A stretch of 64,000 nt of DNA from positions 41,243 to 105,242 of the forward strand of contig JACCGJ010000200.1 in NCBI GenBank assembly GCA_013407085.1, read 5' to 3'. Of the stretch, positions 1-45,800 are shown one piece after another; the stretch's first letter is position 1, and each line of letters opens with the position of its first letter. The DNA comes from Atriophallophorus winterbourni. Its lineage: Eukaryota; Platyhelminthes; Trematoda; Plagiorchiida; Microphallidae. The notes under the pieces were generated by a model. The model was not told the origin of the DNA and ran no database searches. It saw only the letters and a list, made by a program, of their open reading frames with translations. The position numbers and the translations under genes were made by a program.

Positions 1-175
1 TGACACAGAAGCTTGTCAGGCCAAGGGTAATAGTCCGGACAGGGAACATGACTAAGTAGCAGTCAACCCACCACCATTGATTTGACCTTACCGCTAAACA
101 GCCTATATTAGGCCTATGGTGTGTCACGTCTCGTAGGCATGACCAAGACACTGGACGCAGTGTAGATCTTGATAA
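1..175 (+). repeat. Dispersed repeat C (Penelope-associated), copy 1, cut by the window start
   Basis: Begins GACACAGAAGCTT and continues through ACAGGGAACATGACTAAG, GATTTGACCTTACCGCTAAA and TATGGTGTGTCACGTCTCGT. The same blocks in the same order recur at 660-945 and 45935-46250, and in part at 57835. The neighbouring Penelope-type coding remnants suggest this is non-coding sequence of such an element. Confidence 0.75.
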
Positions 176-204
176 CGTGGCAGTGATAAGACGGGGTGTG
201 AAAT

Positions 205-300
205 CTTCACGCCGAGGCAGTTAAAATAACAAAGGCTGGGGCGAATGCGGTGAACAAGGTGGATGGGGCGGATATTTCAACAATCTGGCGTTCGGTTCTG
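205..300 (+). pseudogene. Penelope-like element ORF remnant
   Basis: The plus frame reads ITKAGANAVNKVDGADIS, closely matching a stretch just past the GIY-YIG fragment at 1021-1151 on the opposite strand (EIAKAGRLVVNKVDAAKIS). Both are therefore copies of one coding sequence in opposite orientation. No start, catalytic region or long frame survives here. Confidence 0.5.
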
Positions 301-529
301 TAGCGGATAAGAATTAACGTGCATAACACCTAATGTGCACATGGATTACGTTAGCAGCGGGTCAGCGGACGCTGTTCGCACCTGTATACTAAATAAACAA
401 TTTAGGGATTAACACAGCATTTAGGGGGTGTGATCAATTGCCTTGATCTCGCCTGTCTAGCATAGAGAACTCAGAATTGGTCAAGATAATACCATTTTAA
501 ACCTGAACACTGTTCGTATTGACACCCTT

Positions 530-700
530 GGTGTGACGAAGCTTCTGTGTTCAGAAGCGATACGTTACCAAAAACTTGCTATAACCGAGTCATTGCAAAC
601 TTTATTTTCATGATTCTGGACTCCCGATCAGTCTCAAATATTTTCAAATACATTGGCAACGTTTCACTTCTGACACGAAGCTTCGTCAGCCCAAGGCTGT
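530..700. repeat. Inverted-repeat-bounded unit of repeat C
   Basis: The left arm (GTGACGAAGCTTCTGTGTTC then GCGATACGTTACCAA) recurs reverse-complemented on the right (GCAACGTTTCACTTCTGACA then CGAAGCTTCGTCAG), enclosing about 100 bp. The inner part (GACTCCCGATCAGTCTCAAA) recurs at 25705-25815, so the block is a repeated unit. Confidence 0.65.
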
Positions 701-945
701 CGATACGAACAGTGTTCAGGTCAGAACAGGGAACATGACTAAGTTGAAGTCACTCCCCTAATGATTTGACACTACCTCTAAACAGCCTATATTAGGTCTA
801 TGGTGTGTCACGTCTCGTGGGAATGACCAGGATCAGTGGTCGATTTGTCTGTTAGTTTGTATCAACACCAATCTAATATACGTGAATACAGTCAAGGTCG
901 GTTGACACTGCAGCCAACTAGCGTAAACGTACATAACTAATTGGG
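660..945 (+). repeat. Dispersed repeat C, copy 2
   Basis: Carries the same ordered blocks as the copy at the window start, then continues with ATGACCAGGATCAGTGGTCG and GTCGGTTGACACTGCAGC, which are also in the 46-kb copy. Together the three copies define a unit of at least 270 bp. Confidence 0.75.
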
Positions 946-3110: not shown

Positions 3111-3173
3111 GTTTGTTTAAAAATGCCCGGAAGTAAGAAAACCACCAAAAAGCAAATATCGTTAGTCTCAAGC

Positions 3174-3263
3174 ATATGCGGATCCTGATCCTATTGTCCC
3201 TACCTGATGAGTGCAGACAGCACGAAACCGGTCGTGCGGTGTGTGTGTGATGGAAACGCATGT
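3174..3263 (+). ncRNA. Hammerhead ribozyme-like motif, subfamily B, intact core
   Basis: CTGATGA at 3204-3210; helix II GTGC (3211-3214), loop AGACA, GCAC (3220-3223); GAAA at 3224-3227; a tiny helix III from A-C-C / G-G-U (3227-3232); predicted cleavage after C3233 in GUC. Helix I: UAC (3201-3203) pairs with GUG (3234-3236), then CC (3198-3199) with GG (3238-3239), and an outer 7-bp stem pairs 3174-3180 with 3257-3263. Every invariant hammerhead position is present. The same repeat recurs at 26.9, 34.9, 38.2 and about 43.2 kb. Known relatives by type: the hammerhead-bearing Sm-alpha elements of schistosomes and ribozymes in Penelope-like elements. Confidence 0.82.
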
Positions 3264-5320
3264 AAATCAGCTTTATCGTCTATCCCAGTTTCAACAATGG
3301 CGGGTGATTCAAAATTAGCTAGAACACGTTCAAACGCGTGTGCTGGATTCAAATTGGCCGTCACCAAGACGTTAAACCATAGTGATAATTCGATTTATCG
3401 TAAAAATAAAAGTAATCCGATGAGTTACCACTTCGAAGAATAAACGAAACCAGATCGAAAAACAGTACAGATTGACGATTAAGAATCAATTTGAACTCTT
3501 GCTCACAGCTTCCGTGTACTCTTGGAACACGAGTTATTATCCTTCATCGGTTCCTCTAACCCTTAACCGAGGATTCGAAGTTTGCATTTGGTGAGCACAG
3601 TGGGTAATGTTAAAATGACGAATTAACACTGTGAATATGTATGAGGTTTTTAAAAGCGAAAAATACACGAATAGAACTGTGATCACTTTGCTTACACTGG
3701 CAGTTCAAGAAAAGTTTGACATTGTATGTGAGCATCCGGTGAAGAAAAAGTGATGGGTTCATGTTGGGTTCATGTAAAACAATTTTACGTTTGCGAAGAA
3801 TGAAGCACTTTTAGACAATTGTATACTCGAAGTGTGAGACTCAACCCAGCAATACCTGTAATTTGGAGATACGTTAAGTCTTGCTTGAGATGGATAAATT
3901 GCATTCGATTATCTCGAAGTCTTACGGACGCGCAAACGTTAGGTGCACTTTTAAAAGAACACATTCGGTTTGTGAATGTGAAGATTAAAGCGATTGAGCA
4001 TTGGTGGGAAATGTGAGACTGTGTTTTGACTAGAGTGGTGTATTCATATGTATGGGTACAAATATTTCATCCTCGTTCCAATTTGATCATGATGCATCGA
4101 GCAAGTTCACCGGGCAAACTAAAATATCTCAATTGAAAGAAAAATATTCGAAAGGATTTGTCGTAGATGAAGTTGAAGTGCAATGATGGTTAAAGGTTAT
4201 AATGCTTTAATCATTTTAGTGTCTTCCCACAAGCTTCAAAAATTCACTGTGAGAAACACCTCTCAAGACTCGGCGACTATTGCCGATCAAGGCTGTAGTA
4301 TTTGTAGAAAGCAACTCGTGGCTTTTTTATGATCTATATATTTTTGCGGGATAGTTCGATTTCTGCCTTGTATTTAAACTATCAAAATCACGAATCTACT
4401 GTGGGCGATTTTCTGGCTTTCTTGGACGTGCATCAGTGAGACTTTCAGTTCGAAAACTCAGTATTGAGTCATTACTAAACGGAATAGTGTCAGAGTTGAC
4501 ACCGAAGACTGGCAGTTGATTGAACCTGCTTTATCTAATAAAGGCTTCAAAGTTCAAGCTTTACTTATCATTTCTACACTGCTACAAGGCATGCAGAACA
4601 TGATCGCACTGTCTCTTTCCGATGAGTACAAACCGAACGAAACCGATTATGGAGTCTATACAATAAAATTCCTGCGAATTCGAAATTTGAGAGTTAGTAA
4701 TTTTTCGCGTTGCCATATACTCACAGATTTTGTAATGCATGTCGCATGTCTTTTAATGCGTAATGTTTAAAAGCATAAAAATATATATCTGGGCCATTGC
4801 TCAACCCGATGTTATACTTAAAGAGACATGAATGATTTTTCGGAAGCAATGTTGCCCGAATACGAGTGAATCGTTTCCTAATAGGTTTTGGTGCCATCCA
4901 TAGTTTGCTAAGGTATTTGGAAGCCTACAGTTGCGAGAAATTCAGTTTCGACTTTTGAGCTTTTTACTCTCTCATCTCTCTTCCACCCTCTCAATTTATA
5001 TCAGTAACTATGACAGTTTATGTTCAATGTCGTTGAGACACCAATCAATATGTCACTGACCTTGAAATAGTTGACTGCCAATTTGCAATACCCCCTAATA
5101 TTGTCTAAACTTTGGGTTTCCAGTGACCGAACTAAATTTACGCCATTTTGCGGGCCATCCCTAATGCAATTATTAATAATTATGTACCACCATTTGCCGA
5201 ACAGCTTTGAATTCAAGTGTGATTGCTATCCTTGGCTGTTTGAATGTGTTCCATTCTATCCATTACTGGCCAGAGTTCAAAATGTGGATCTACCTATTTT
5301 TGTTGACAGTTTGTGAATCT
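3264..5320. other. Unassigned stretch
   Basis: Short frames only (for example 4516-4770, 84 codons, unrecognised). No domain, splice-linked exon pair or shared repeat was identified. Confidence 0.35.
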
Positions 5321-6589: not shown

Positions 6590-6765
6590 AAAGTGTCGCC
6601 TTACAACAGAGTTCTGACCATCGTTGCAAGCGCTGCTTGAGAGATTGTTTCTCCCGAATCGGACTGCTTAGTCATTCAAAAAGCTGTAAAACATGAAAAT
6701 TTATTCGACTTTGATGTACATCCATGGTCGACATCGACCGAAGGAGGCCAATAACATGCTATGTA
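6590..6765 (+). pseudogene. ZF-LINE 3' end: C2H2-like finger plus palindromic tail
   Basis: Reads HRCKRCLRDCFSRIGLLSHS then a Cys, a few residues and TGA: a single C2H2-like finger of the C-x-x-C-x(8)-I-G-L-x-x-H type that closes the ORF of a widespread endonuclease/reverse-transcriptase LINE family. About 30 nt later comes the tail GATGTACATCC, ATGGTCGACATCGACC, GAAGGAGGCCAATAAC. Only the 3' end is present. Other finger/tail copies lie at 22.3, 29.4, 37.3 and 58.8 kb. Confidence 0.65.
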
Positions 6766-9920: not shown

Positions 9921-9959
9921 TCGGAAAATACCCTCCCGAATTAGAATATTTATTCATGC

Positions 9960-10010
9960 GCTTGTGATGTACATCCATGGTTGACATCGACCGAAGGAAG
10001 TCAACAACAA
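9960..10010 (+). repeat. Tail of ZF-LINE (plus strand)
   Basis: GATGTACATCCATGG, TTGACATCGACCGAAGG, AAGTCAACAAC: the same tail as at 6713, but opposite in orientation to the adjacent reverse transcriptase fragment, so a separate insertion. Confidence 0.7.
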
Positions 10011-10659: not shown

Positions 10660-10965
10660 CATATGCTGGATGATATCCATCATGGATGTAAATCATGAAA
10701 ACGGTTACTTCATACTTGAAAAGGTCGATCGTTACTATGCAGTAAGATTCTGTGGTTACAATATCTCCCATAAAGTTAACAGTGATAAGTAGTACCTTTG
10801 GATCTACAATGTTTGCGGGCTGTCAGTATGACCTGTTTTTAACAGCCGAGCGCACTAAGCGCTCTTCTTCTACATCAAGTTGACGCTTCACACTAGACAT
10901 CCAACGTGAAATGTCAAGATCAAGAACCTGCCAGCTTGTACCCTCAATATCCTATTTCATATCTA
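10660..10965 (-). pseudogene. ZF-LINE C-terminal fragment with degraded tail
   Basis: The minus frame reads EGTSWQVLDLDISRWMSSVK then RQLDVEEERLVRSAVKNRS before a stop. It resembles the equivalent part at 22.1 kb (PTSWKEILRD ... YRVKRRLRAREEKLLLSSAE). Downstream on the same strand lies GATTTACATCCATGATGG, a decayed form of the tail. Confidence 0.5.
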
Positions 10966-12570: not shown

Positions 12571-12966
12571 CTAATATAGGTTTCGTTTTGTTAGTGATTC
12601 TAAAAATTTGATGCAAATCAAGTAAAGCATGAACTGTTTGAGCTTACAGAGCGATTTGGGTACACTGGGCAACTGGTCAGAAAGGAAAAGGCTCTCATTC
12701 TGACAGTGCAAAATGGTGCAGCTGGGTAAAATATTTCCCATTATTCTATAAGATTGGATCCCGACACCTGGAATGGACAACAGGATGAAAAGGAAATCTA
12801 AGTTTTTATTAGTTGAAATCTGAAGAACCGCTTGCAATGTGAAGCCGTGTAAAGCCGAGCTTACCACATGCCGGTATGCATCGACGTACTCTTGGACGTT
12901 TTCCCGTAAAAATTCCCCCAGCGGATAACGATAAGCTTTGGCGTCATGACTACAAAAGGACATCAA
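12571..12966 (-). pseudogene. Unrecognised 131-codon minus frame beside the CR1-like LINE
   Basis: Among the longer open frames outside the receptor and LINE. It starts MSFCSHDAKAYRYPLGEFLR and ends with a Leu/Lys-rich part; no motif matched a family I know. The upstream minus sequence keeps protein-like stretches in the same frame (about 13065-12990: RANVFKLRCSIRSSYGRL) interrupted by stops, so it may be the open remainder of a decayed mobile-element ORF. Function unknown. Confidence 0.25.
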
Positions 12967-13217: not shown

Positions 13218-15130
13218 TTACGGTATGAATAAAACATGAAAATTACAATAGTATAAAAGTAATAGAGAATATGAAATGTAAGGCTCACGAATGATGTTCG
13301 TTTGCAAGTGCAAGTCCAATTTCGCTTTAAAAATCGCCAAGCAAGGAGAGTCCACCACATGTTGGGGTAGGGAATTCCAAAGAAATATAGCTCGTACAGC
13401 GAAAAAATGTCGCTGACAACCAATACGGGAACTTGGAACGTAAAGGGATAAGGTATGTCCGCGTGTTACTTTCCCATCACATACATCAAGCAAGTGTTTT
13501 AGTGGATGTCCTTCGGTAGACACAATTCTATAAGTCAGAATAATATCGCGTCGTATCCTCCTTTGGGTAAAGTCAGATAGACCCAGACGTCGCAGTCTTT
13601 CGGTATACGGAACATTGCGAAGACCCATCACTAACTTTGTTGCTCTATGATAGATTTTATCGAAGAGAGCAATATCTTTTCGCAGCCAAAGGAGCCCAGC
13701 CCTCGACCGCATACTCCATCGTAAGGCGAAGGTAGACATTCATCATCATTGGTAGCGTTACAAGGGAGAATCTTCCAAATATTCTTCGAAAGATACCTAA
13801 CAATCTGTTGGCCCGTCGATATATATTCTGGCAGTGCACTGTGCTCTTGAAGTTACCACTAATCCACACTCCAAGATCTTTTTCTAACGAGCTCCATGCT
13901 AGGTTTTCAGTTCCTAATCGATATGTCCATGGAACATTCTTGCCAAGATGGAGCATCTTACATTTCTGTATGTTGAATGACATGTCATTCATGGCAGCCC
14001 AATTCGACACGCTGTCCAAATCCATTTGTAGTTTCTCAAAATCCTCTGCAGAGCTAATCGGCGTCCAAATTTTCATATCATCCGCGAACAGGACTATTTT
14101 AGAAGATATGAGGGGAGGGGTAAATCGTTTATGTATAACAGAAAGAGGAGCGGGCCTAACGCAGATCCTTGTGGGACTCAACTCGTGGTTTTAAACGTTT
14201 TTGATAGCACTCCGTTAACTTTAACTCTGGCGTCTCGATCTGACAAATAGTCACACAACCATGAGAGAAGTGGTTCACATTCCTGAACGCATCAGTTTTT
14301 GGAAAAGCAGATGATGATTGACTCTGTCAAAAGCTTTCGAAATGTCTAGGTAACAAACTTGGATGCAAGAACTTCTATCCAACTCTTTCGTCCAGTCGTC
14401 TAATGCTATGTGAAGATTTTTTGAGACAGGATCGGTGAGATTGAAATCCATGCTGTGCTGGCCAAAACAAATTAAACGATTCAAAGTGTGCAACCATTCT
14501 TTTCGAGACTATACGTTCCATGACCTTAGCAATAACAGGTAAAAGTGTGACGGGACGATAATTTGCAGCGTCAGATCGGCAATCGCCTTTGAAGCTAGGT
14601 GTTATCACGCCGGACTTCCAATCTTTCGGTACAACTCCCTTAAGCAACGAATAGTTAAACAGGCTGGAGAACGGTTCACAAAGCTGACGGTGACAGAACC
14701 TGAGCACATCCGATCTGATGCCATCCGTTCCTGGGGATTTTCTTACATTTAGTTTGAGCAAATGACTTCCAACAATCATTGGATTTATCGAAATATCACA
14801 CAATGTTTCGAATCCTATTTCGATTGAATACTCAAAACGTTCCACTAAAACATTTGGTATGAACACTTTAGAGTAGTAAATTGCTAGAGCATTTGCGGTT
14901 TTTAACGCTGTTTCAGTGAGTTTCTCACCATTCTGGATGGGACAAATACGTCGTTTGACTTTCGCTTTCGAGTTCATGATCTTGTACAGTAACTTAGGGT
15001 TGCTTTCCATTTTTGACAGGAGCATCAATTGGTGCGCTTCCTTATCCTCTCGAATAAGTGCAGTCACTTTGCTGCATAACATACGGAAATGTTGCCAAGA
15101 GGTAGAAGTATTGTTGGCTTTGTGCTGCAC
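13218..15130 (-). pseudogene. LINE reverse transcriptase remnant
   Basis: In order: SPGTDGIRSDVLRFC, DWKSGVITPSFKGD, ANYRPVTLLPVIAKVMERIV, then in a shifted frame CYLDISKAFDRVNHHLL (first catalytic Asp), VPQGSALGPLLFLLYINDL, then shifted again LFADDMKIW (catalytic F-A-D-D), and the C-terminal NIYRRANRLLGIFRRIFGRF and TERLRRLGLSDFTQRRIRRD. All palm motifs survive across at least three frames, so the domain is complete but broken. Confidence 0.9.
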
Positions 15131-16150
15131 TCACGCTGCTCGCTTCAGTGCTATCCACTTTTTTGTTCTGCTGAGGACAACAAAACGAAGTTCATGAACG
15201 CCCCTTTTCTGAACGATCTGCGAGTTCTCGTCTATCTTCATTTTCAGAAAACCTACAAGTTCGTTCCATTGCGAGTCAGCGGTTATATTGTCCGTCTGAA
15301 AATGCGGAATCTGCACGAGCGATTTACTCAGGGCCAATTTATCTACCCGTCGAACCACCCCATTCGGAGTAAGCGATTGTTGAGTACTGCAAACATAGTC
15401 GAACACAAGCACTGAATGGTCGCTAAGACCCAGTGGATCCTGGAATTCGATCGGTTCGATAGATTGTTCCTCCGATGTTAACACCAAATCCAAGACAGAG
15501 GGGCGGTCAGAACCTCTCCTCCGGGTGCATTTGTGAACATGGTTTTCTAACGGGATTGAATCTAGTACCTCTCTAAATCGGTATTCTAACGTTTGTGGGG
15601 AGTGATCGTCCCTGAGATAAAGGGCGGACAGATTAAAATCACCCATTATAGGTGTCGTTGCTTGCTGTGTGCGAGTCAAGCGCTGAAGCACTTGGATCAA
15701 CCTTTCGTTGTACGATTCCGTAGATGAAGGGGACCGATAGACCACACCAATAATGCAAACATCACCAGACATCAGTGTTAAAGAGCGCCTAATTGTATCC
15801 TCGAGCGTGAATTCTGTCTTGTCTATTAGAATGCACTGGAGTCGATTATGATAATAAAGAGAAACACCACCACCACTTCTCTCTCAATCGTTCCTTATCA
15901 AATTCATATTTGGAATTGATGTCTCCGTTTCAAACAATTGGGAAGAATACCATGTTTATGTAATGGCGATAATGTCAGGTGAGTAGCGCGAACATATTTC
16001 GGTTAGCTCAGCTAATTTGTTTGGAAGGCTTTGTGCATTTGTATATAAAATTCTTATAAAGTTTTTGGTGTTAAAATCATGAAAAGTTATAAGAGGGCCG
16101 ACTCGGTTAGAGTCGGAATGCTCAAGTTTTTTGGAGCAATCGCATGACAT
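15131..16150 (-). pseudogene. LINE endonuclease domain remnant
   Basis: N-terminal part: ILYTNAQSLPNKLAELTEIC and SPDIIAIT (the N-A-Q-S-L-x-x-K and D-I-I-x-I-T-E-T-W box). After a stop at 15956 it continues as ETWYSSQLF and SGGGVSLYY, then VCIIGVVYRSPSS, PIMGDFNLSALYL (catalytic G-D-F-N) and LGLSDHSVLVFDY (catalytic S-D-H). The active-site residues are still present, so inactivation is by frame breaks. A single TGA at 15133-15131 separates this frame from the reverse transcriptase frame. Confidence 0.85.
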
Positions 16151-25815: not shown

Positions 25816-26930
25816 CATTTATTTTGCGTTTCTAGTAACGAGGGGTAAATTTATTTCATCAAAAACTGAAAGCAATGTTTTTCCTCAATTAATTTTTCAA
25901 TTGGACCATAATATATCCTTCCGTAATTATTCTCAACTGATCAGAGTTAATTCGCTCGTATTTATATGGTAAATTCGATGTTGCTACAACATTGTACATT
26001 TACTCAAATCAGAATATATATAGAGAGTGGTGAAACTGATTTTTTTCTTCAAAATTCACAATTTTATAAAACCGTTTCCACTGTAACACGAATCCGAAAT
26101 CTTACGCTTGTCTAATTTGCATATTTAACTCAGATTTGTTGAAAATTAAATTTGTACTGTGAGTCTCTTGGGTATAAATTTCGCATCGACGTTTTCTGTT
26201 TTTCATGCGAGTTTATTATTACTTAATGAAGTTGTGATCCATATTCGGGTCAATCTCAATTTAAATTCACTATACGCTTATATCAACTTGAAGCAAGCAA
26301 AACCCACATCGGTGTATAGCATTTGCATTTGCCTCTGTCACACTGCTTCGTGTGTGAAATTTAGCTGTGCACGAAATGGGGGATTACTTTGCATTCAATA
26401 ACGAAAAATAATCTAATAACATTTGATAAAATGTGTAGATTGATATAGAGATATATCTGGAATCGTACAAACAATATCGCCTATGCCTTTGATGATTTTG
26501 AATTGATTTCATAACTTTGCATCCACTGAATCGATAATAGAGACTAATGTGTAATTTGATTCAATGCAGCGAAATGAAAATCATCATGTAATTGGCTGGA
26601 CATACACCGACAAAGTGATCAGTGGAATCAATCGGAGAAAAGTATCGCTTATCTGATATACTATAAAAAAGGCTAAAAATCCTAGTGTTGAAGTGATTGA
26701 CGATTGAGGGTTGTTTCAAGATAGCCGGAGCTGAAATGGTTGTCTTCGCGAATTAAACGCAAAAACCAAAGACGTTTGCGGAGATCGCGCGAGCGGGACT
26801 TTTGCTGCAACCTGCACTACCTGAAGCAGATTGATAGAAAAAACGAACAGATTTTCTAATGCTGCATAACAAATGAATTTGTGAAGTCACTTATGAATTC
26901 AAATCCAGTTTACAATTTCTCAACAAATTC
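25816..26930. other. Unassigned stretch
   Basis: Short frames only; nothing recognised. Confidence 0.35.
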
Positions 26931-26933
26931 GTG

Positions 26934-27030
26934 GCATGCGGATCCTTATAGCATTGTTTCAAACTGATTGGCAACCAGCACGAAACTGGTTGTTTTTGTG
27001 TGTTTTAATGTGACTGATGGAAATGCATGC
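26934..27030 (+). ncRNA. Hammerhead-like repeat, subfamily B, decayed
   Basis: Same arrangement as at 3174: GCATGCGGATCC, CTGATTG (CTGATGA mutated in its last two bases), CCAGCAC, GAAAC at 26982-26986, T-G-G-T-T-G, and GTGACTGATGGAAATGCATG. The outer GCATGC stem arms are kept. Predicted inactive because of the core mutations. Confidence 0.6.
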
Positions 27031-27039
27031 GAACGTTGA

Positions 27040-28050
27040 GTTTTTGAATTAACTTTTTTCTTTCTGTAACAAGATGCATGACTTCTTTTCAGCTAAAATA
27101 TGAATCTGTAGACGATGTTACAAAGTGTGTGGCTCCTCAAATCATTGACTACTGCAGCAGATGAGCAAACAGGAACAGCGTTCTGCTCGCAATTCGATGA
27201 CAATGTTGTGTATTTCTTGTCAACATGTAGATTTACACCGATTTACGATGTTTGAATATACCTGCAAACAAGATGCACCTGTTTTCTTACAGTTTAGGCA
27301 AAATATGCAAAAATCCAAAGACTATTTTTTATTCGTGATTCTTTTCGTAATTAAATAACTGTACGGTTTCCCAAATTAATTGTTCTAGTAGCAAACATTA
27401 GAAGTCACAATTTCTTTCTAATTTATGCCTCATATGCACCTTTACTTTGAAAAACACAGAAAGTTGAATCGTTTGTTTGACTACATGTCCATCATCTCAT
27501 AGTTTGTCAGACAAACTCGGACACATGTCACTCACGGTATGAAATATGTCAGCGATGACAATCCAGAGCGTCGGAAAATCTAGTGGTTCACATTTAGAGA
27601 AAAAATGGATTTTTTAATGCTTCGTCTTATTCCAAAACATTATTTTGTCCTTAGGCTTTCCGTTTAGTGCGATTGATGATATAGCTGAAAAATTTCACCT
27701 TCACGAAATAGCCCTTCGTGACGTCCATGATCGCGAGTTCAAATGAGATATCCGTTATTAGTTTTGATTGAAGATGTAAACCTATTTCGGAATAAATGTT
27801 TACTCTAACTTATATAATTTTACGAACTAGGTTTCTCCCAAATAACCTATTCGAAATAGTTAGCATTAGAAACTCTGCTCTGTTGAGAGAATACAATTCG
27901 GATCATAAGTATGCTTCGTATAAACTTTCATAATCTACCATCTTTAATTAGTAATTATATATGCTCTGAGATATACGAATGCCTTTGTTTCGTTGTAAAT
28001 TGCCCGTTTATTTATCCATCCAACCATTAATGCATCAAACACAAGTAGGG
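27040..28050. other. Unassigned stretch
   Basis: No gene or shared repeat seen. Confidence 0.35.
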
Positions 28051-28052
28051 TA

Positions 28053-28370
28053 ACCAAAGTAATGTGTTGCTAAACTCACCAGTATTTACACTCCGTCATC
28101 AGGTGGAGACAGTAAGATTAGGTTCGGTTAGCCTTGAAACAGTGGATAAATGATAAACAACGTTATACGTGTATGCCATTGTAGCATAGGGTTCGTACAA
28201 CGAACCACGATTTTCAAACACAGAATCACAAAGTCATTCGTGGCCAAACACTCAAGGCGCTTATGGATGACCAAAGTAATGTGTTGCTCACATCCCCCGA
28301 ACTTACATTCCACTACCAGTTTCTGGCTCATTGCCGTCAACAGGTGGATACACTAAGACAGTAAGTAGGG
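28053..28370 (-). ncRNA. Head-to-tail pair of hammerhead-like repeats, subfamily A
   Basis: ACCAAAGTAATGTGTTGCT occurs at 28053 and again at 28270, a 217-bp period; the helix I block AGGTGG occurs at 28101 and 28342, a 241-bp period. On the minus strand the 28097 unit has CTGATGAC but has lost the GAAA side by a deletion of about 24 bp; the 28337 unit reads CTGTTGACGGC, then GAGCCAGAAACTGGTAGTGG, so helix II, GAAA and GUA remain but CTGATGA is mutated to CTGTTGA. A body of about 100 bp lies between. This is a repeat dimer. Confidence 0.7.
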
Positions 28371-29364: not shown

Positions 29365-29490
29365 CTAATGTTGCTGGCCTCCTTCGGTCGATGTCGACCA
29401 TGGATGTACATCACAATCGCATGAATTTCATGTTTTACAGCTTTTGGAGTGGAGTAATATTTCATGGAAAATAGCACGGGAAGTAACTCA
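29365..29490 (-). repeat. ZF-LINE 3' end with tail
   Basis: On the minus strand: a finger-end remnant (K-A-V-K-H-E-I-H-A), ATGAAATTCATGCGATTG, then the canonical tail GATGTACATCCATGG, TCGACATCGACCGAAGG, AGGCCAGCAACA. A 5'-truncated insertion. Confidence 0.7.
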
Positions 29491-30490: not shown

Positions 30491-30496
30491 ATGTAT

Positions 30497-30700
30497 AGGG
30501 TTGCTCACATACCCCACAATTACACTCCACAACAGGGTTCGGCTTGCCGTCATCATTTGCGACAGTAAAATTAGATTAGTTGAGCCTTGAACCGGCTGTA
30601 AAGATAGAAAGTTTTATAATAGAATGCCACTATTATATAAGGTTCGTACGACGAAACACTTTGCTCAGCAACGAATCAAAGTATTATCCGGTCAAGTGAA
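30497..30700 (-). ncRNA. Hammerhead-like repeat, subfamily A, decayed monomer with body
   Basis: The plus strand reads GTTGCTCACATACCCC, AATTACACTCCACAAC, GGCTTGCCGTCATCA, GAGCCTTGAA, then the body with ATGCCA, AAGGTTCGTACGACGAA and CAACGAATCAAAGT, matching the 28.1-28.3 kb unit in order. On the minus strand the core is AATGATGACGGC ... GCCGAACCC, with CTGATGA and GAAA both mutated. Predicted inactive. Confidence 0.6.
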
Positions 30701-33350: not shown

Positions 33351-34850
33351 GCTGCTAGATTTTCAATAAATATATTATGAGTAAAAATAATTTGTTTAGA
33401 ATTCTAGAAATATTTGCTCATTTTTATTTAACATCATAATTAAACAAAAAACTGAAATTCGATTTTGTTCACAACCGAGAGATTGCTGAAAAAAGATTCT
33501 TTTTATTCTTTTTAAAACTTTTTTTATTTTTCTTTGCCATTTACGCAATTGCATAATCAACAAAACACAATCATCATTTTTATATTTTTTCGTTTATTCA
33601 GTTCAAATTTTTCAGTTAAATAGATCGTCGGATTTCCGAGTTTTACTAATGGAACAGTTGGTGCAATTTATCTTTTATTACTAATTTCAGGGATAATTCA
33701 TGGGAGGTAACCATAGCGTCGAAGTTGTAATTCATCGAAATGGTTTTCGGGAACTTGGGGTAACATTTCACATGCAACTTTTCTATGAAAATCTCTCCAA
33801 ATTAAGGGATGCATCAGTCACCGTTTAGAAAAAGCAACTGCTATTTACACATTGGACGGATGGCGATGAAATACTTTGGATATACGCAAGAATATTTACA
33901 GTTATATTTGAAATATTTTGCGCGCGTGAAATAAAAATTGCCGAAATTGCATCTGCATTACTTGCGATTCGACCGGTTTAAAGTAATCTGTGGTACGTCG
34001 CTCTAAATGCTCTTAAACTGTTTAAGGTTGAAAATACTTTTAATGCCCGCGTGATTTTACTGTAACAGTTATGATGGTTTCAGCCAAAGCTAGTCTTCAA
34101 GATGCTGCAGCCAAGTCTTTGTGATATGCTCTGGAGAACCCATACAAATGTCGTAATTTATTTAAACGCTGACGCGAGCGAAACATGGCGCAAGCTTAAT
34201 GACATTCAAATATCTTGCCTTTTCTAAATTTGACCATGGTCAACTCGCACAGCACATACATCACATCGTAACAATTTTTGGTGTATACTAACAGTCTGGG
34301 AGCTCTGAACACAGCGTATAAGACGTACGAATTTTCATTAGACGTTCGTTGCTCGAATTCCGCCGTGATCATACTTTTCAGACAATGTGCTCAACGCGGG
34401 TTATCACAGACCCAAATGTAAAATTTATGTTACAATTGTTGGAAAATATATCTCGGGAACCCAGCATCTACTTTTATCTTGAAAACTTTAATCCATCACA
34501 CAATTTCGTGTGAAAGAAATCGCAAGTAACTACTAGTTTAATTTATTCCAGTAGAATGATAAGGAAAAACTAAGCCAACAGTCGTGTCGTAATAGAACAA
34601 TCTTGACAGGGTTTGATGAATTCGGTTCAATCGATCGACCGAAATTAGTTTCGAACCTTGTATATATTGAATATATAAAAAAACGTTTAAATAAGTTAAA
34701 CTCGTAAGCCACTGTTGGATATGGCTCACACGACCAATCAGTTCAATCACAAACGTGAATCTTTGCTCATGACCATGGGTTTAACACCATCTACCTGTTC
34801 TTGAGCACGTGCTCGGTCAGGTTGGTGGTGCTTACAAACGCAACTGGTTA
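33351..34850. other. Unassigned stretch
   Basis: No gene recognised; T-rich runs near 33490-33540. Confidence 0.35.
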
Positions 34851-34965
34851 ACAATTCTTCCACTGTTTCAAGTCATATGGATCCTGGTCGTATTGTCTCT
34901 ACCGGATGAGTGCGACCAGCACCACACCGGTGTGCACGTGACGGAACTGCGTGCAAACACGGTTT
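34851..34965 (+). ncRNA. Hammerhead-like repeat, subfamily B, dead copy
   Basis: CCACTGTTTCAAG (as in subfamily A), ATATGGATCCTGGTCGTATT, CGGATGAGTGC (U4 of CTGATGA mutated), CAGCACCACACCGG (GAAA lost), GTGACGGAACTGCGTGCAAA. Both conserved core strands are damaged. It carries a flank of subfamily A and a core of subfamily B, linking the two. Confidence 0.55.
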
Positions 34966-34979
34966 TTTAATCGATAATG

Positions 34980-37177: not shown

Positions 37178-37405
37178 CTTCTCACCTCCTTCGGTCGATA
37201 TCGACCATGGATGTACATCACACGCACATGATGGTTTCATGCTCAGCAGCTTTTAGAAAGACTGAACAGTCTCAATTGGGATTGACAATCTCTTCCACAG
37301 TGATCACAGCGATAGGCATTACTCGATCAATCGGCGTCGGTGGCACGCAGGCGTCGTTATCTGCGTTCAGCAGCCAACAGCAGTATCTGCTATCTGCTTG
37401 AAAAT
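37178..37405 (-). pseudogene. ZF-LINE 3' end: finger plus tail
   Basis: The minus frame reads YRCDHCGRDCQSQLRLFSLS then K-A-A-E-H-E, a C2H2-like finger remnant (C-x-x-C kept, histidine spacing degraded). Then comes GATGTACATCCATGG, TCGATATCGACCGAAGG, AGGTGAGAAGC. It faces the plus-oriented tail at 36980, giving a tail-to-tail pair 170 bp apart. Confidence 0.65.
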
Positions 37406-38140
37406 TATGCTTTACAACGTGTGTTCTTCGCAACTTGTAGGGTCAAGGCCGAGAGATTTCTCATCTCTTTTGCAAACATCTTTGTTACGCAAGTGCGATC
37501 TGCCCAAACAAACATTTTGGGCATGAAATACAATTCTACAACTCTCCGTGGAATGCTGTCGGTTATTCTAATAAAATAATTATAGTCAAACATTTTCTGA
37601 TCGAACGCCTAGTTGCCTAAGGAAACCTAATTTGCAATAATAATTTTTAGGTCGATATCATGATAAATCTATCAAAACAAGAAAATAAATCACTTTTCAA
37701 TGTGGTACAACACAAGGTTTCCCATCTTTAGTTAGGGAATATTTCGATTGAAATAGTTGAACTATAAACATTTGCAATCATTTCAAAAAACTGCAAATAC
37801 TAGTCACTTCGCTCTTGTAAACTTCGAATACTATGCATAAAATTCAAATTAAAAGCAAGCATTCGAAAACTGCGAACATTTTTATATATAAGTGCCCGGA
37901 ATGTAAGCAACAGATTACACTATTATGTGAGTATTGCTCAAATCAATTCGATGTAGATATGATTTTCGGAATATGGAGGAGAATTGTGATTGTTGGAAAA
38001 CGTGAAATTGTCTCGAATACGAATTCATTTCCGTTACATCAGTCAACGTAAATCTTCTCACAAAAAATGCAAAATTTTGCGACAGAGGGAATATTTAATA
38101 AGTGTCAACGAGAATGTGAAATTAGAAATAAATTAAGCGC
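37406..38140. other. Unassigned stretch
   Basis: Short frames only. Confidence 0.35.
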
Positions 38141-38245
38141 ATGCGGATCTTGATTCTACTATCCCTACCTGATGAGTGCAAACAGCACGAAACCGGTCGT
38201 GGGTTGTGTCTGTGTGATGGAGATGAACTCAAATGAGCTTTTATA
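38141..38245 (+). ncRNA. Hammerhead ribozyme-like motif, subfamily B, intact core
   Basis: CTGATGA 38169-38175; helix II GTGC (38176-38179), loop AAACA, GCAC (38185-38188); GAAA 38189-38192; ACC/GGU helix III; predicted cleavage after C38198 (GUC). Helix I: C38164-C38165-U-A-C38168 pairs with G38199-U-G-G-G38203 (five pairs including one G-U). All invariant positions are kept. It sits about 680 bp past the receptor's stop codon on the opposite strand. Confidence 0.82.
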
Positions 38246-38249
38246 TTCG

Positions 38250-38916
38250 AAGAGCACATTGTTTTCACCGATATCGGAATAAATATCTTTACTTTGCACA
38301 AACATGTCTGTCTAGTATCCATCAAAACGAGTGATCTAAAAAAAGTTATATTAAGCTGAAAAGCAAGGATGGGCAGAAACTTACAGGCGAATACAAAGGA
38401 CAATGATGACTCGCAAATACCGTAAGCATATTTTCTCACAGTCAGGTAATTTTGAATAATATAAATTGAAAGTTAAACGTATCTAATCAATTTTGGTGTC
38501 CTGCATGACAAATAAGAACAAATGATTCTTGGTAAATTTGTGTCATTCCCGAAGATGAATAACAAAATTTACGCTAAAGTTTAATTATACATGCTCAGTA
38601 GCAAATACATTAATTTTCGACCTTAATTATCATGAAATGCAATCGAATATTCACGAGGTAATTAGTGAATTGTTAAAATAGAAAATTCGTTTCGGCTTTT
38701 TGCAAAATTATTACTACACTCGCATTATCCCAAGGTAAATAGATATAAGCATAATTGATTGTGTACTCAATGTATTTACATACGACGCAAGCCAATATAC
38801 AGAACAATAATGCACTAAATTTTGTAAATAATCACATTGGTGAACCTTTTTGAAAATGCACCAAAATTTCGCGTAGAAATGTTTACAAGTAGGATGTTCA
38901 ACAATTTTTGAATCTA
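38250..38916. other. Probable 3' UTR and downstream flank of the receptor gene
   Basis: AT-rich, follows the receptor stop on the minus strand. Apart from one ATTAAA variant, no feature is seen. Confidence 0.35.
38580..38585 (-). promoter_or_regulatory. Possible poly(A) signal (ATTAAA variant) of the receptor gene
   Basis: Minus-strand ATTAAA about 330 nt past the stop codon. It is the only near-canonical hexamer I noticed before the hammerhead repeat at 38145. A single hexamer in AT-rich DNA is weak evidence. Confidence 0.2.
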
Positions 38917-39891: not shown

Positions 39892-42800
39892 CTGTAAATC
39901 AAGCGTTGAGGAAATTTAAATGCTGTAACAGAGAATGTGATTTCTAATCGTTATCTCAAAATGATCAAAAAATACATTGTAGCTAGTGCAGTTTTCAGAG
40001 CATCTCGGTCTCAGTGAGTGTCGAATTGTGATCCAAATATTTCTAGATTTATGGAAGACATTTTATGGCGAAAAGTGTTCGTGAAACAAGATTCGATGTG
40101 TGGCTTTTGGCTATTGCGTAACAGTTAGTGCACCGGATCAATAGTCCACTTCTGAATATTAAATCAAAATACTCATTCAGACAAAAATATTTTTTTGTTC
40201 AGAAATTTAGTTTTTTCGAAGTTTCTTTTTCCCGGATTTCAGTTGAATATTTGAATATTGATCGAAACGTTGAGGCAATTTGGAGTTTCAGCTGAGACCA
40301 ATATTTCACTTGTTATCAAATATTTAAGCTTTTTGTAGCTTCAACACGTATCTAAAATTCGTCATTCTCAGACTTATTCCACAATTTTTTTAACTTTGCC
40401 ATTAATCGCCCAACTTTTTTTAACAGGTTCATCCCAAAGCATCAAGAGAATGAAATAAGCACTTACCAATCCAGGCGATTCCATTTCCGTTATTCCACTA
40501 GCAAACGAGACTGCCCCACTCACATTGTTCTGAACATGTCGATAAGGATGAAAACTCTCGTGCATCAAATTCATCTCATTGCAACAACATTTTTCCACAT
40601 GCATCCCGTTTGCGTTTTTGGATACCGGATTACGACTCGGATCGCATGAGCAACAATGAAAATGAGGATCGTTAGTCTTGATTTGACTGCCGCGTACACA
40701 CAATGGCATCCGTCCGTCCATCGGATCACAATAGGAATGACGCTTTTCAACTAAACCCCTTTTCCTCCGTTGACATATGAGCAATCCCACTCCAAGTAGG
40801 AGGAGCAACATAGCAAATCCAATTCCCAAACCGATAAACAATGGTTGAACCATGACAATGGATAAACTAAACGGTTTGGAAGAGGTGCTCGCCTTTTGAC
40901 TTGCGGGGGCAACAAATTTTCCATGCGGTGGCTCTGAAGTGAAGAACAGTGACAAATGGTTTAATGTAATATCACATGCTATTATAAACTTATCGAAAAA
41001 TGTGTTAACAAATAATTCAAAAATATTGTGTTTTCGGAAAATAACTACTACACACTACGCGCAAAAAATAAACGATTGTCTCGGTGCAAACCTTGCTGAA
41101 CATTCGCGATAATTATACCACAGACGTTAACCGCTAAACCAAGATTTTGTTCGTGTCACCTTTGAAACCACGCAGCGACAATATTGCCCAATCTAGACCG
41201 TCACGCTTCATGAGATTTCATTCAAATTTTCACAGAGGATTTAATTTGATCGAATGCGTTGCTCATTCAACGAATATTTTTCGCATTCAATCAATTACTC
41301 GGATCGCTGAGTCTGAATTCACGGAATATCCACGCACTTCCAAATTCGCAATTTTTGTTTACTTTCTCAGTGAAAAGCAATAGTTCAATCGCCTTCACAC
41401 ATTTTAAAATATATAAATAGCACAATGGTTACTCCTTGCCAGATTCATTAGAGATTTTAGAAATGACCGACATCGTTTAGTTCATTTTTAGTGATGAGTT
41501 CATTGGTGCAAAAAATCTAGTACGATATAAGACAAAAAATAGCAATGTCTTTTTGGAAACAGGAAGTATTCGAATTTCATAATCCACACATACAGAAAGC
41601 ATATAAACTGGTCTGTCTCAGCTGATTTCATTCCTCCAAACTATTTCTTGTGAAATATTTATCTACAATCACTTGCCCGTATTACTCATTCCACAACAAA
41701 GTGATAATTGAACGGGTTCACCTGATTTCGATTCCGTCAAATGAAATCAACGAACACGCTAGCTGGAAATAGTCATTCAAGTTTGACTTCAAAGTCAGCA
41801 TTAAATCCTCACACACAGAGAGAGACATATTATACGCATTGAGTTGAGAAAAGTCTCGAATTGAGCTCAAAATGTCTTCAAGAGCAAGTGTGAGCGATTG
41901 AATTAACGTTGCGTAACCTGACACTTAAACAGAGTGGAGACAATTCTAAAAATCATTTTATTACATTTTGTATTTTGAGTGTGCAATGTTGAATGTCATC
42001 AATGAATGACTAATTTATCTACCTGGATTTTTCTCAATTGAAAAGCCGTGTCCCAAGGCCGGAAGTTGTCGGGTTCCACGTGCGTTGGATTCATTTGCGT
42101 CAAAAGAATGAATTGGAATGTTGCTAGTTGATTTCGGATGTTGCAATCCTGAAAGAATGATACAAATGAGGTTATTTCTGTATTTGAACAACGTGGTTCT
42201 TTGTAAGAACCCTATATAACAGTGGCATACAAGTTTAACTTTGTTTACCGCTTTTCCACTGTTTCAAGGCTTACTGAACCTGATCTTACTGTCTCCACCT
42301 GATGACGGCAAACAGCCAGAAACCGGTAGTGGTGTGTAAGGGATGGGGATGTGAGAACCACAATACAGAGTTTATTTCACATTCGAAAAATTGAATTAGA
42401 AATCGTTTTCACCGCAATTTCCGTTTCTATCAAAACGTTGGTCGTTATTAATAATGTCATTCAAATGATTATTCTATGTGCATTAAAAATTGATTCACGG
42501 ATGACTTCCAATACAAATAGAATCGTTCCAAGCCACTCAAACGTGTGGTACAATGTTCATAGTATATCAATAAACAGTTCTTCCTGCTAGGTTGCACAAC
42601 GAACGAAGAGAAAACATGAAAAAATCAAATGTAAATAACCAGTTTTAAGATCACTCATACCCTGCGTTCATACACCACAACCAATTTCTGGCTGTTTGAT
42701 GTCATCAGGTGAATATAGAAAAGATAATGTTCAGTGAGCCTTGAATGCCTCGGCACAGCTAATATTTGGATGACCGATCTATTCACTGTAGCTGAGTCAA

Positions 42801-45800
42801 CCGATTAAACCAATGGGAATGACGTGTTTTATGGCTGCTCACCGCCCCTGCACTTACAAACCACAAAAAATGCCTGCAGTATACCGTGATGATTGTTGTT
42901 GTAAATTTATTTAACCCTTTACTGCCCTCAGTACCGAATTCGGTACGCTAATTAAAAGTTGTATAAATAAACAGTGATCGGTTCAAATCGTTTCTTTTGT
43001 GTTTTTACTTGTTCAATACAAGTCTAGTATCAGTTTGATACAGAGACACAACAGTCATCCGGCATATAACGCCAGTGTGCATCGAGAGTTTGCGAGAGAT
43101 GGACGTGTAGCGTATTCAGCCTAGAAATTAAATTGGGCAGTTAAGGGTTAACTATATTATGACACAAGGAAACTGATTCTGCTGCCCGTTTTTAATGAGT
43201 ACGTACAGTGCAAATGGATTGCTCTTTTGCTGAGTGACTTGTGCACACATGCAGCTATAGGTCTCAAAATAATGCTACTGTTTCAATGATGAAGCTTAAA
43301 AAGGGACGCGATGGAATGTCTGCTAGGAAAGGAGTAGATTTGTATCTCAGTGTTGTTCTGTAATAATTCACAACTGAGTGTGATGTAACATAGCGGTAAT
43401 CACATTTTCAAACTATACTTTTTGTGACAATTAAGTAATCAGGACCTCTTGAATGGCAAACCATTGCTTCGTGGTGTTTCGCTCTGGTAATAGTCACTAA
43501 TAACGACGTGTAAAACGTTTAAGTGTTTTAATCGTTCAGTGAAATAAAAGCCAATAACGAAGATGATCATCGGTAGAGAGTTTTCAATAGGTAAACTGCA
43601 TCTGTTCGTTCAAATTGGCATAAATTGATTTATTTCGAGACCATATCGTTGAACAACAATTGTTTTTGTTCACTTTTCACGGGCTCAGTGTTGTCAAACA
43701 GTTTATTTCTGTATAAAGGCATTCAATTATGGGCGTAAACAGCGTAAATTTCTTAGTTATGAGGGAGTTGCTGATAAAAATTCAGACAAATACGTTAATT
43801 TTAATATTTCCAATCAGGGGGCTATCCGATTTTTCATTTGAGTTGCTCGACTAAGATGATCGAATTCTTCAGCCTTTCCCTGTGATATCCGAGTGATTAC
43901 TTGATTATCAGCGCAGCAATATTTGAGACAAAATACATGTGTTAGTGAATAAGAATCCTGGTTATTTTTTCATAGTTTTGACCGATTGAATAACCAATGT
44001 GTGAACCAAATTGTCTGAAATCCAGCCCACGTGAAAAATATCAAATTTGTGGTACCATTTTTACGCAACGGCTTCAAAGTAATCATTTATTTGCTGTCAC
44101 CAGCTGCTGAGGTCACAATACCTAAATTGTAGTAGGGAACACATGGACGGTGTGTTGGCACTTCTAGATTTGTTAGTCTTCGCATTGGCACGTATTTTGT
44201 TGCGTACGTGCGTACGGCGACAAGTTTCCTGCTTTAGAACTCAGCGGGTTGGCTTAGTACGATCAGAATCAGCATGTTTTGAAACAAGGAAGAAATGCTA
44301 AACAAGGTGTGAACATATGATTCAATTTGATACAACTGAACATCAAATTTGGCAAATTTGTGGCGTCAGCCTTGCCAAACAGTTGCTTACAGTTGCTTAC
44401 AGCTAGTTATTTTCCAGTTAATAGATCAGTTGTAGCATTAATATTGAACTGGAAACAATTAAACTATATATCTAGGGCACAAAGTGAACTCTGTGACACT
44501 AAGGATGTGACCTTCTTTTTTAATCGCAGTGTCCATTTTGAATTTCACCCAGTCGCACAGTTTGGGCAAAAAAATTTCCTAAACCCAAGTACCCATTTAA
44601 ACCCATCTGTAAAATGCGTAGCAACATTAGTTGGGAAAATAATTACAACTATCTAGCACCCTGTCCAGTGGAATCACATTGATTTTGAATGAAGTGCATT
44701 ACGATACGTCAAAATCACGAGTTTTTGGATAATTGTCAGAACTCCACCCTCCAATAATAGGAAGCGCCCTCACGACCGACGACGACCATCGCGAATTCCT
44801 AATAATTCGGGTTTTCGGAAGGATCGCATCAGAACGATTAGAGCGACAACATCCTCGGAAGTATGAAGAGATGGACAACGGTAACTGATTTAGAATGATA
44901 TGCAAGGTCTGTCAAACAAGCCCTTCGTGGTGTGCGATTGAAGCCTACCGTTTAACACGAAATCCATTTACAATTAAGATCAAAGTGACAACCGGAGTGG
45001 GCGTGTTTCGGGCCAGTGCTGTGGTTTCGTGATTTGTCTATATAAGAGAGGCGTGTCTTTTGTTTTTTGTCATGCGCGCAAAAAAACGCGCTCGATAAAA
45101 TGGCGTTTTATTTTGTTGTCAGACAAATGGGTAGACGGGCTCAACTTTGAAATGATTGATCTCAGGGATGAATTAAAACACAATCGGCAAGTGAGTGAGG
45201 AGCGCGGGAAGGGAATAATTTTAATTCGAGTGTTCCTGAAGCCTATGCATACAACGTGATTGACGATAGAACAGGATTCGGACGCGATTGATGAGCCGTA
45301 TTAACAATTACTCTTTTAAATATGGGTTATACTTCTTTTCGCTAAAAGAATAGGAGATAAGTACTAGCCCTATGCGTTACCTGGGGTTGATTATACTTTT
45401 CAGCTAACTAAACGAAGCAATGCATATTTATTCGTAAAAATCGGTTTTCACATTGGATTTTATTGCTTCTTCCGATTGAACCACTTTAAAAGAAAACTAA
45501 AGGGTGCATGCTTAAGAAATAAAAAAACCTCAAATCTGTTTTGACTGACCAATATCATGAATATCTAGATCGTAAAAAATGACGTTGACACTTTAGCCGT
45601 TCAAAAATACTAACCTTTATTTTGTCGTTGAGTCTTCGATTTTTTGTTTGAATCCTCGAACAGGGTTGTGGTGATCACGGTTGAAGGAACTAAATCAAAT
45701 AATCCATAAATTATTTCATACAAGGAAAGCAAAGTATGCTGAAAATTTTCCAAATTTATTCTAATCTTTAGTTGATCATGTAAACAATTTGGATGAAATG

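Follow-up and report, generated by a model that had tools for sequence, protein, structure and literature searches.

An abundant hammerhead retrozyme family in the trematode Atriophallophorus winterbourni with insertion ends suggestive of Penelope-type reverse transcription

A hammerhead motif in a 64,000-nucleotide stretch of Atriophallophorus winterbourni DNA (hereafter the window) belongs to a single copy, short and old, of a non-LTR retrozyme of the metazoan kind, as judged by its hammerhead, unit size, GC content and target duplications. The anatomy of the family, its copy number, covariation and insertion ends were established directly, as were target duplications in about a fifth of insertions. 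From insertion anatomy, ends, duplications and the coexistence of Penelope-like elements (PLEs) in the same genome we infer that the retrozyme, which is non-autonomous, is copied by a Penelope-type reverse transcriptase (RT) acting in trans, a reading to which we give a probability of roughly 0.7. The palindromic helix III, the 233-bp tandem unit, the abundance of the subfamilies and the Penelope-type insertion ends described below were absent from the initial annotation of this DNA.

Results

The type I hammerhead motif lies on the forward strand at 3198-3239 and contains the CUGAUGA core, C3 to A9 (CTGATGA in the DNA), at 3204-3210, followed by helix II GUGC/GCAC with its AGACA loop at 3211-3223 (strands GTGC 3211-3214 and GCAC 3220-3223, loop 3215-3219), GAA at 3224-3226, ACCGGT at 3227-3232 and C17 at 3233, on the 3' side of which the scissile bond is predicted; the numbering (C3, A9, C17) is that which we take to apply to these letters. 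Helix I pairs CCCTAC (3198-3203) with GTGCGG (3234-3239) and includes a C-C mismatch at 3200/3237 and one U-G pair. An outer stem of 7 bp, with one U-G wobble, is formed by ATATGCG (3174-3180) and CGCATGT (3257-3263), as had been claimed. The initial annotation had described a complete hammerhead core with all invariant letters in order, and every letter was indeed found at its position; completeness holds for the letters but not for helix III. The conserved core CUGANGA...GAAA...UH and three helices, with helix I open-ended, are present, helix III being only the self-complementary, loop-free ACCGGU (3227-3232). Because this helix is a 3-bp palindrome without a loop, a normal hairpin cannot close within one molecule. 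The available text on newt and axolotl hammerheads (PMC7229834, PMC6155905) reports that these have weak helices III and need dimers for efficient cleavage, and by this analogy a dimer is probably the best working form of the present hammerhead.

A scan with the Rfam type I model Hammerhead_1 (RF00163), which had been proposed as a check, did give matches in the window, yet all were below the gathering score of 34, at which the Rfam scan of the window returned no match. The motif at 3198-3239 scored 26.5 bits (E 0.032) and that of a sister copy at 38163-38204 scored 29.7 bits (E 0.0029), these being the two best among five matches that the Rfam listing gave for the 64-kb window at E values of 10 or lower, and the best score for the 233-bp family among the relatives scanned was 32.9 bits. 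When folded, the window copy was no more stable than its shuffles (z 0.45); for the 233-nt unit z was -2.22, with 5 of 200 shuffles folding equally well.

A profile seeded with three copies detected twelve copies in the window, which fall into two subfamilies. The suggestion that the hammerhead belongs to a dispersed repeat resembling the schistosome Sm-alpha elements was right in kind. The copy under study, a short hammerhead-only form of subfamily B, spans 3165-3279 on the forward strand (about 115 bp; nhmmer profile 101.7 bits, positions 69-181 of the 233-bp unit) and shares 90% identity with a further short copy (L033) across 110 bp. A second short subfamily B copy, found by both Rfam and the profile, occupies 38135-38248 (forward strand). 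Further profile matches were assigned by eye to subfamily B at 26907-27041 (forward), 4515-4689 (forward, diverged) and 44215-44333 (reverse, diverged), and to subfamily A at 42652-42745, 30493-30655 and 60742-60906 (all reverse, the last diverged). The profile also matched a subfamily A copy (CTGATGACGGCAAACAGCCAGAAACCGGTA) at 42195-42355 on the forward strand. Two incomplete tandem subfamily A copies lie at 28086-28358 on the reverse strand, with cores at 28103 and 28344, 241 bp apart, and a composite copy at 34688-34970 consists of inverted halves whose outward-facing 3' ends are at profile 55 and 181. Decay is evident in the window copies, which have 87-93% identity to their relatives.

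Subfamily B has helix II GTGC/GCAC and the cleavage-site triplet GUC, while subfamily A has CGGC/GCCA, which leaves a C-A mismatch at 10.1-11.1, and the site GUA. The mismatch at the first helix II pair was seen in the subfamily A core that was searched for, for example at window positions 42299-42329, and going by these letters cleavage by subfamily A would be expected to be weaker. In the 537-Mb assembly (15,840 contigs) the subfamily B core occurs at 10,909 places (37-mer, up to 3 mismatches) and the subfamily A core at 12,949 near-exact places (38-mer), with 0 for the reversed control in each case, which is more than chance would give. Scaling from 12 copies per 64 kb would give roughly 100,000 copies genome-wide, an extrapolation from one window.

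Tandem arrays define the unit. Three units with a period of about 233 bp are found in locus L008, and more arrays in L009, L010, L017, L023, L025 and L028; the subfamily A unit is about 241 bp, from the window core pair 28103/28344 and from exact core pairs on contigs C74 and C381. With its 233-bp period and a GC content of 0.459 the subfamily B unit falls within the description of retrozymes as tandem hammerhead units of about 170-400 bp with GC below 50%, and its target duplications of 9-15 bp agree with the more than 4 bp expected where duplications are present. The longest stop-free stretch over three tandem subfamily B units was 162 aa, without a Pfam match, and the 233-bp unit does not encode the RT and GIY-YIG domains of an autonomous PLE. 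Monomers are no more alike within arrays (0.924) than between them (0.9255), and the idea that one circle was copied into each array is thus unsupported. Searches of phage records (601-bp query) and of IMG/VR (one pattern) gave no match. A MIR6140 match was seen in L001; its identity was rejected, the match being a long inverted repeat scored for pairing.

Several other repeats were noted. A dispersed repeat (CTCCTTCGGTCGATGTCGACCATGGATGTACATC...) has direct copies at 29372-29428, 37179-37235 and 58699-58755 (those other than the reference at 82 and 91% of it) and inverted copies at 6699-6756 and 9952-10009. Direct repeats of 134-171 nt, 81-85% alike, occur at window positions 15-925 and 45977-46203, with inverted pieces at 501-545 and 677-721. 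In the assembly, 24 COX1-like stretches (contigs C6618, C4859, C4746, C8922 and others), 19 of which have an internal TAA or TAG, suggest mitochondrial insertions or contamination. By eye, the COX1 stretch of C6618 is read best with AAA as N, ATA as I, AGR as S and TGA as W, as in the mitochondrial code of flatworms, although this contig may itself be foreign or a nuclear insertion.

The initial annotation had named a lack of compensatory changes in helices I and II among genome copies as one refuting outcome, and the idea of a self-cleaving RNA survives this test in 62 copies. Its other refuting outcome, the lack of a significant model hit, is half borne out, as the Rfam matches are below the gathering score. 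A sample of 250 core-spanning copies was reduced to 139 by filters on identity, length and N, and then to 60 (below 90% identity, 80-112 nt, complete ends), to which two window copies were added by hand; the 62 copies were aligned blind to structure and all 62 rows were counted. Over the hammerhead and outer stem 82.9% of cells were paired; shuffles gave 79.1%, and no slid control exceeded 53.2%. Two-sided changed cells numbered 46 against 15.0 in shuffles, and further pair types 38 against 29.3, neither value being reached by any of 500 shuffles. The number of pairs with a two-sided change (13 of 19, against 9.4 shuffled) was reached by 22 of 500 shuffles and equalled at slide -1, a weaker margin than that of the two-sided cells. 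Such changes occurred at 5 of 6 pairs in each of the outer stem and helix I, at 3 of 4 in helix II, where U-A was replaced by G-C in 4 of the 62 copies, and at 0 of 3 in helix III, which had one-sided changes only.

The outer-stem changes arise chiefly because subfamily A differs from B in that stem, most aligned B copies having GCATGC/GCATGC and A having GCTCAC/GTGAGC. Three adjoining pairs of the A-type stem were swapped together in 7 copies, which may be a single old inherited event, in which case there were fewer events than the cell counts suggest. That the stem is a peculiarity of the window copy was rejected, since it is family-wide with two-sided changes at 5 of 6 pairs; in the copy at 38135-38248 it is degraded, its 3' side reading GAACTC in place of GCATGC.

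Insertions of the 233-bp family were collected by a hammerhead pattern (8 loci and 20 of its listed places), by likeness to window positions 38070-38290 (30 loci) and by the exact subfamily B core (30 loci and 20 further places). The spacer of the pattern was 13, not 11, which brought in other variants and families. Matches up to 60 bp apart were merged into one insertion, and 117 of 141 interior clusters were kept, 24 flank duplicates being dropped. These 117 distinct insertions comprised 90 simple copies with a single 5' and a single 3' end, 26 composites with 3' ends outward, like that at 34688-34970, and 1 with 5' ends outward, a bias (26 versus 1, two-sided p 4e-7) by which chance inverted neighbours were rejected as the source of the composites. 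Exact target duplications of at least 9 bp flanked 22 of the 117 insertions, against 0.63 expected from swapped flanks, and exact shared words of at least 11 bp were present at the ends of 11, against 0.05 expected; the other 95 had no exact 9-bp duplication. Duplication lengths, taken from 130 of 157 clusters (the remainder lying near a locus end or being duplicates), were 9-15 bp, and the duplications were 67% AT compared with 62.8% in the window. At the window copy, TATCGT at 3157-3162, repeated at 3274-3279 on the same strand, is a possible remnant of the left target duplication, although a 6-bp exact match alone is insignificant, 23% of swapped flanks sharing at least 6 bp.

The 3' ends of these insertions fell largely at two places in the unit. 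Among simple copies 62 of 90 ended at site I (profile 170-200), 5 at site II (positions 45-67 of the next unit) and 23 elsewhere; 15 of the 26 composites paired site I with site II, 2 had site I at both ends, none had site II at both, and 9 had at least one end elsewhere. Exact ends were taken from 24 loci with duplications, ignoring opposite-strand rows, which are 5' ends; one locus (L074) gave no row and another (L077) could be read as either 163 or 60 nt. With the duplication as end point, site I lies 35-53 nt after C17 (21 values, median 45) and site II 146-163 nt after it, at about 153 (6 values, one ambiguous). The combination of outward inverted halves, target duplication and two fixed 3' ends that marks Penelope-type insertion is therefore found in part of the copies, 26 of 117 being composite. 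The subset gathered by exact core, after removal of 7 overlapping loci, held 42 insertions, namely 34 simple, 8 composite with 3' ends outward and 0 reverse; 26 of the 34 simple 3' ends lay at profile 170-200, and 13 of the 42 insertions were of the short hammerhead-only form. The 5' ends of simple copies were seen to cluster at profile 62-80, at or just outside the outer stem, giving the recurrent 115-bp form; an RT stop or an RNA 5' end are candidate causes. Four subfamily A copies were fetched, and by our own reading two (L127, L129) have 10-bp duplications and end 43 and 40 nt after position 17, one (L126) is a composite without clear duplication and one (L128) continues in tandem.

PLEs of the same genome were approached through a fragment in locus L066, spotted by what we took to be a GIY-YIG-like motif. 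Used as query, this fragment gave 4,979 candidates, of which 150 were scored, and PLE-like open frames of up to 924 aa were found among these. On several contigs PLE-like copies stand about 2,531 bp apart as separate units of about 2.5 kb. One element matched RVT_1 at 25.9 bits and GIY-YIG at 19.9 bits, below the Pfam cut-offs of 29.6 and 22.6; the L066 fragment itself had no Pfam match, and a PDB sequence search with the GIY-YIG piece gave none. The RT piece had 954 relatives at E up to 0.001, with RVT_1 and PF26215 on many of the 120 proteins listed; among the matches listed were proteins of the flatworms Dicrocoelium and Spirometra, the best coming from a shark. In the stretch between PLE open frames (L109) a minimal hammerhead overlaps the next start codon, an arrangement already published for the anole PLE.

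Opposite-strand PLE neighbours up to 5 kb apart, by our own count from the 150 of 4,979 candidates, had their 3' ends outward on all seven contigs. One end of each pair lay 41-46 nt after C17 in 7 of 7, and the other lay at 78-91 nt in five, at 1 nt in one and was not reached in one. Four pairs carried exact duplications of at least 9 bp, and the other three had duplications of 5 bp. The available text of PMC11167929 places the RT start of an anole PLE 111-118 nt and its hammerhead cut 26 nt into the ORF, figures that compute to 85-92 nt after cleavage, near the second end of the PLEs here (78-91 nt). Comparison of the retrozyme with two PLE stretches (901 and 761 bp) gave no nhmmer match and blastn matches of at most 27 bp at E of at least 0.089, so that no sequence homology was found in these stretches; the link between retrozyme and PLE is consequently one of anatomy.

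At least two further tandem hammerhead families, with units of 257/258 bp and about 304 bp, were present among the loci (L004, L006, L001, L007, L024, L005, L002). Both match Rfam Hammerhead_HH9 (RF02275), at up to 43 bits against a gathering score of 52, and have 53 bp in common around the hammerhead, while the 257-bp and 233-bp families share only 37 bp, at the hammerhead, with 81% identity. In three of five loci of the 257-bp family an end resembling site I (43-49 nt) was found: L001 (15-bp duplication) has ends at 45 and 173 nt, L006 (13-bp duplication) at 49 and 165 nt, and L007, which lacks a clear duplication, at 43 nt. The other two miss site I. In L004 the single end that was reached lies at -4, and L024 ends at 79, or at 62 by its own unit. 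The 304-bp family, represented by diverged copies only (L002), ends at 68, 114 and 217 nt and does not fit.

Discussion

These insertions are most simply explained by a Penelope-type enzyme that carries out target-primed reverse transcription on one nicked strand or on both. Tandem copies would be transcribed by read-through and the RNA would be cleaved 3' of C17, with pairing of two ACCGGU helices III assisting, to give circular or multimeric forms. A PLE protein with RT and GIY-YIG activities, the presumed enzyme, would nick both target strands in trans, and reverse transcription would begin at the fixed internal sites I (about 45 nt) and II (about 153 nt) after the cleavage site. A start on one strand would leave a 5'-truncated copy ending at site I, such as the window copy, and a start on both strands would leave head-to-head inverted halves with their 3' ends outward and a target duplication flanking them. 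The available text of PMC11167929 describes cutting of both target strands and two internal start sites for the anole PLE, and that of PMC3846280 describes rotifer PLEs that have an inverted pLTR next to them, a 9-bp duplication and, in some cases, a tail of 31 bp.

Several observations count against this account. Site II lies at about 153 nt, compared with 78-91 nt for the second end of the PLEs; 9 of 26 composites have at least one end outside both sites, as do 23 of 90 simple insertions; 95 of 117 insertions have no exact 9-bp duplication; the duplications, at 67% AT, are hardly AT-rich, whereas the published PLE favours AT-rich targets; and array monomers are no more alike within than between arrays. 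The misses in the 257-bp and 304-bp families, the PLE domain scores below the Pfam cut-offs, the absence of sequence likeness to the two PLE stretches, the Rfam scores below gathering and the unremarkable fold of the window copy weigh on the same side.

The alternative that retains most weight, possible although we lean against it, is that the hammerhead now serves chiefly as a structural handle, with cleavage dispensable for spread and many copies, chiefly of subfamily A, catalytically weak. Subfamily A carries C-A in place of G10.1-C11.1 together with a GUA site and has nevertheless reached 12,949 near-exact cores, and two of its copies show 10-bp duplications and ends at 43 and 40 nt; hammerhead mutants of the anole PLE insert normally in vitro, according to the available text of PMC11167929. 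Set against these points are the thousands of subfamily B copies that keep the standard core, and C-A may be tolerated in subfamily A. This alternative is compatible with copying by a PLE enzyme, and the odds of the two overlap.

Movement by a LINE is less probable and we consider it unlikely. The retrozyme would then be SINE-like, spread by target-primed reverse transcription with twin priming, and its likeness to Penelope would be convergent. LINE insertions also show 5' truncation, target duplications and inverted halves, and twin priming leaves 3' ends outward; moreover, a decayed endonuclease/RT stretch of LINE type lies on the reverse strand of the window at 13657-15772, where a match to Exo_endo_phos_2 exceeds its cut-off, two RVT_1 pieces fall short of theirs, and the frames are separate. 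To our knowledge, however, the second end of a twin-primed LINE is not expected at one fixed site, and site I was paired with site II in 15 of 26 composites. No poly-A tail was seen by eye at the 3' ends inspected, and the same two-ended pattern is present in the PLE-like elements of this genome, the mapping of 3' ends having covered the retrozyme families and PLE-like elements. A plain dispersed or satellite repeat spread at the DNA level, its hammerhead letters reflecting recent descent and not function, is very improbable, for although arrays exist and the window copies are decayed (87-93% identity to relatives), it would not be expected to produce target duplications, fixed ends and two-sided stem changes.

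Within the account of copying by a PLE enzyme we raise, tentatively and with the balance of likelihood well against it, the idea that the hammerhead fold could serve as a docking site and ruler for the Penelope RT, copying beginning 41-50 nt after the cleavage site. RNAs of the 233-bp family, the 257-bp family and the PLEs, whose 60 nt downstream of the hammerhead show no detectable likeness, have ends at that distance, and a hammerhead and a start distance shared without shared sequence suggest that the fold may position the enzyme. It is equally doubtful, as a corollary, that the enzyme would recognise the ribozyme and not its sequence, in which case any hammerhead RNA could be a passenger of Penelope. 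The distance, itself noticed post hoc, is not kept by two of the five 257-bp loci, nor by the diverged copies of the 304-bp family. Since an anole template that begins 20 nt into the ORF and so lacks an intact hammerhead retained activity according to the available text of PMC11167929, the hammerhead is not strictly needed for the start. The odds of both the ruler and PLE copying are held down by the miss in L024, the weak AT bias and the PLE domains that score below cut-off.

Were the fold to act as a ruler, this would explain why hammerheads are retained in PLEs and retrozymes, how a hammerhead-only piece of 115 nt could spread and how subfamily A multiplied despite its damaged helix II. The persistence of hammerheads in retroelements would gain a concrete answer if the hammerhead positions the RT. 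Insertion ends point to a candidate enzyme, retrozyme and PLE are both abundant in this genome, and the fixed ends are testable.

Comparison with known systems

Published work already describes metazoan retrozymes and the suspicion that they depend on PLEs (PMC7229834, PMC7761336, PMC8969392, each in the text available). As described in the available text of PMC7229834, the non-LTR retrozymes of metazoans have, like the family here, a type I hammerhead, tandem units of 170-400 bp with GC below 50%, arrays that range from dimers to long ones, and PLEs in the same genome. That work regards PLEs as a strong candidate on the grounds of hammerheads in common, copies in tandem and coexistence, and the word "inverted" is absent from its main text; in the sample described here, by contrast, most insertions are truncated or composite and their fixed ends were mapped. 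The newt and axolotl hammerhead HHR_Amex1 has, as here, a very weak helix III, made of one pair and a palindromic tetraloop, and cleaves efficiently only as a dimer, the newt/axolotl unit being about 330 bp compared with 233 bp here (same text). Schistosome Sm-alpha (PMC8490949, available text) is likewise a SINE-like flatworm repeat with a type I hammerhead, and is likened to the present family by description only.

Searches of the open-licence literature found no paper that joins retrozymes with twin priming, no paper on retrozymes and Penelope whose title concerns insertion ends, and, in the text covered, no published name for the 233-bp family. PLEs, in the available text of PMC11167929 and PMC3846280, resemble the retrozyme in having halves inverted head to head, target duplications (8-10 bp in rotifer PLEs according to PMC3846280, 9-15 bp here) and two start sites after the hammerhead; the retrozyme differs from PLEs with minimal hammerheads in its 233-bp unit without a Pfam-matching frame. 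As far as these searches go, the 233-bp family joins a known kind of retrozyme, and the evidence from its insertions is new within the open-licence literature searched.
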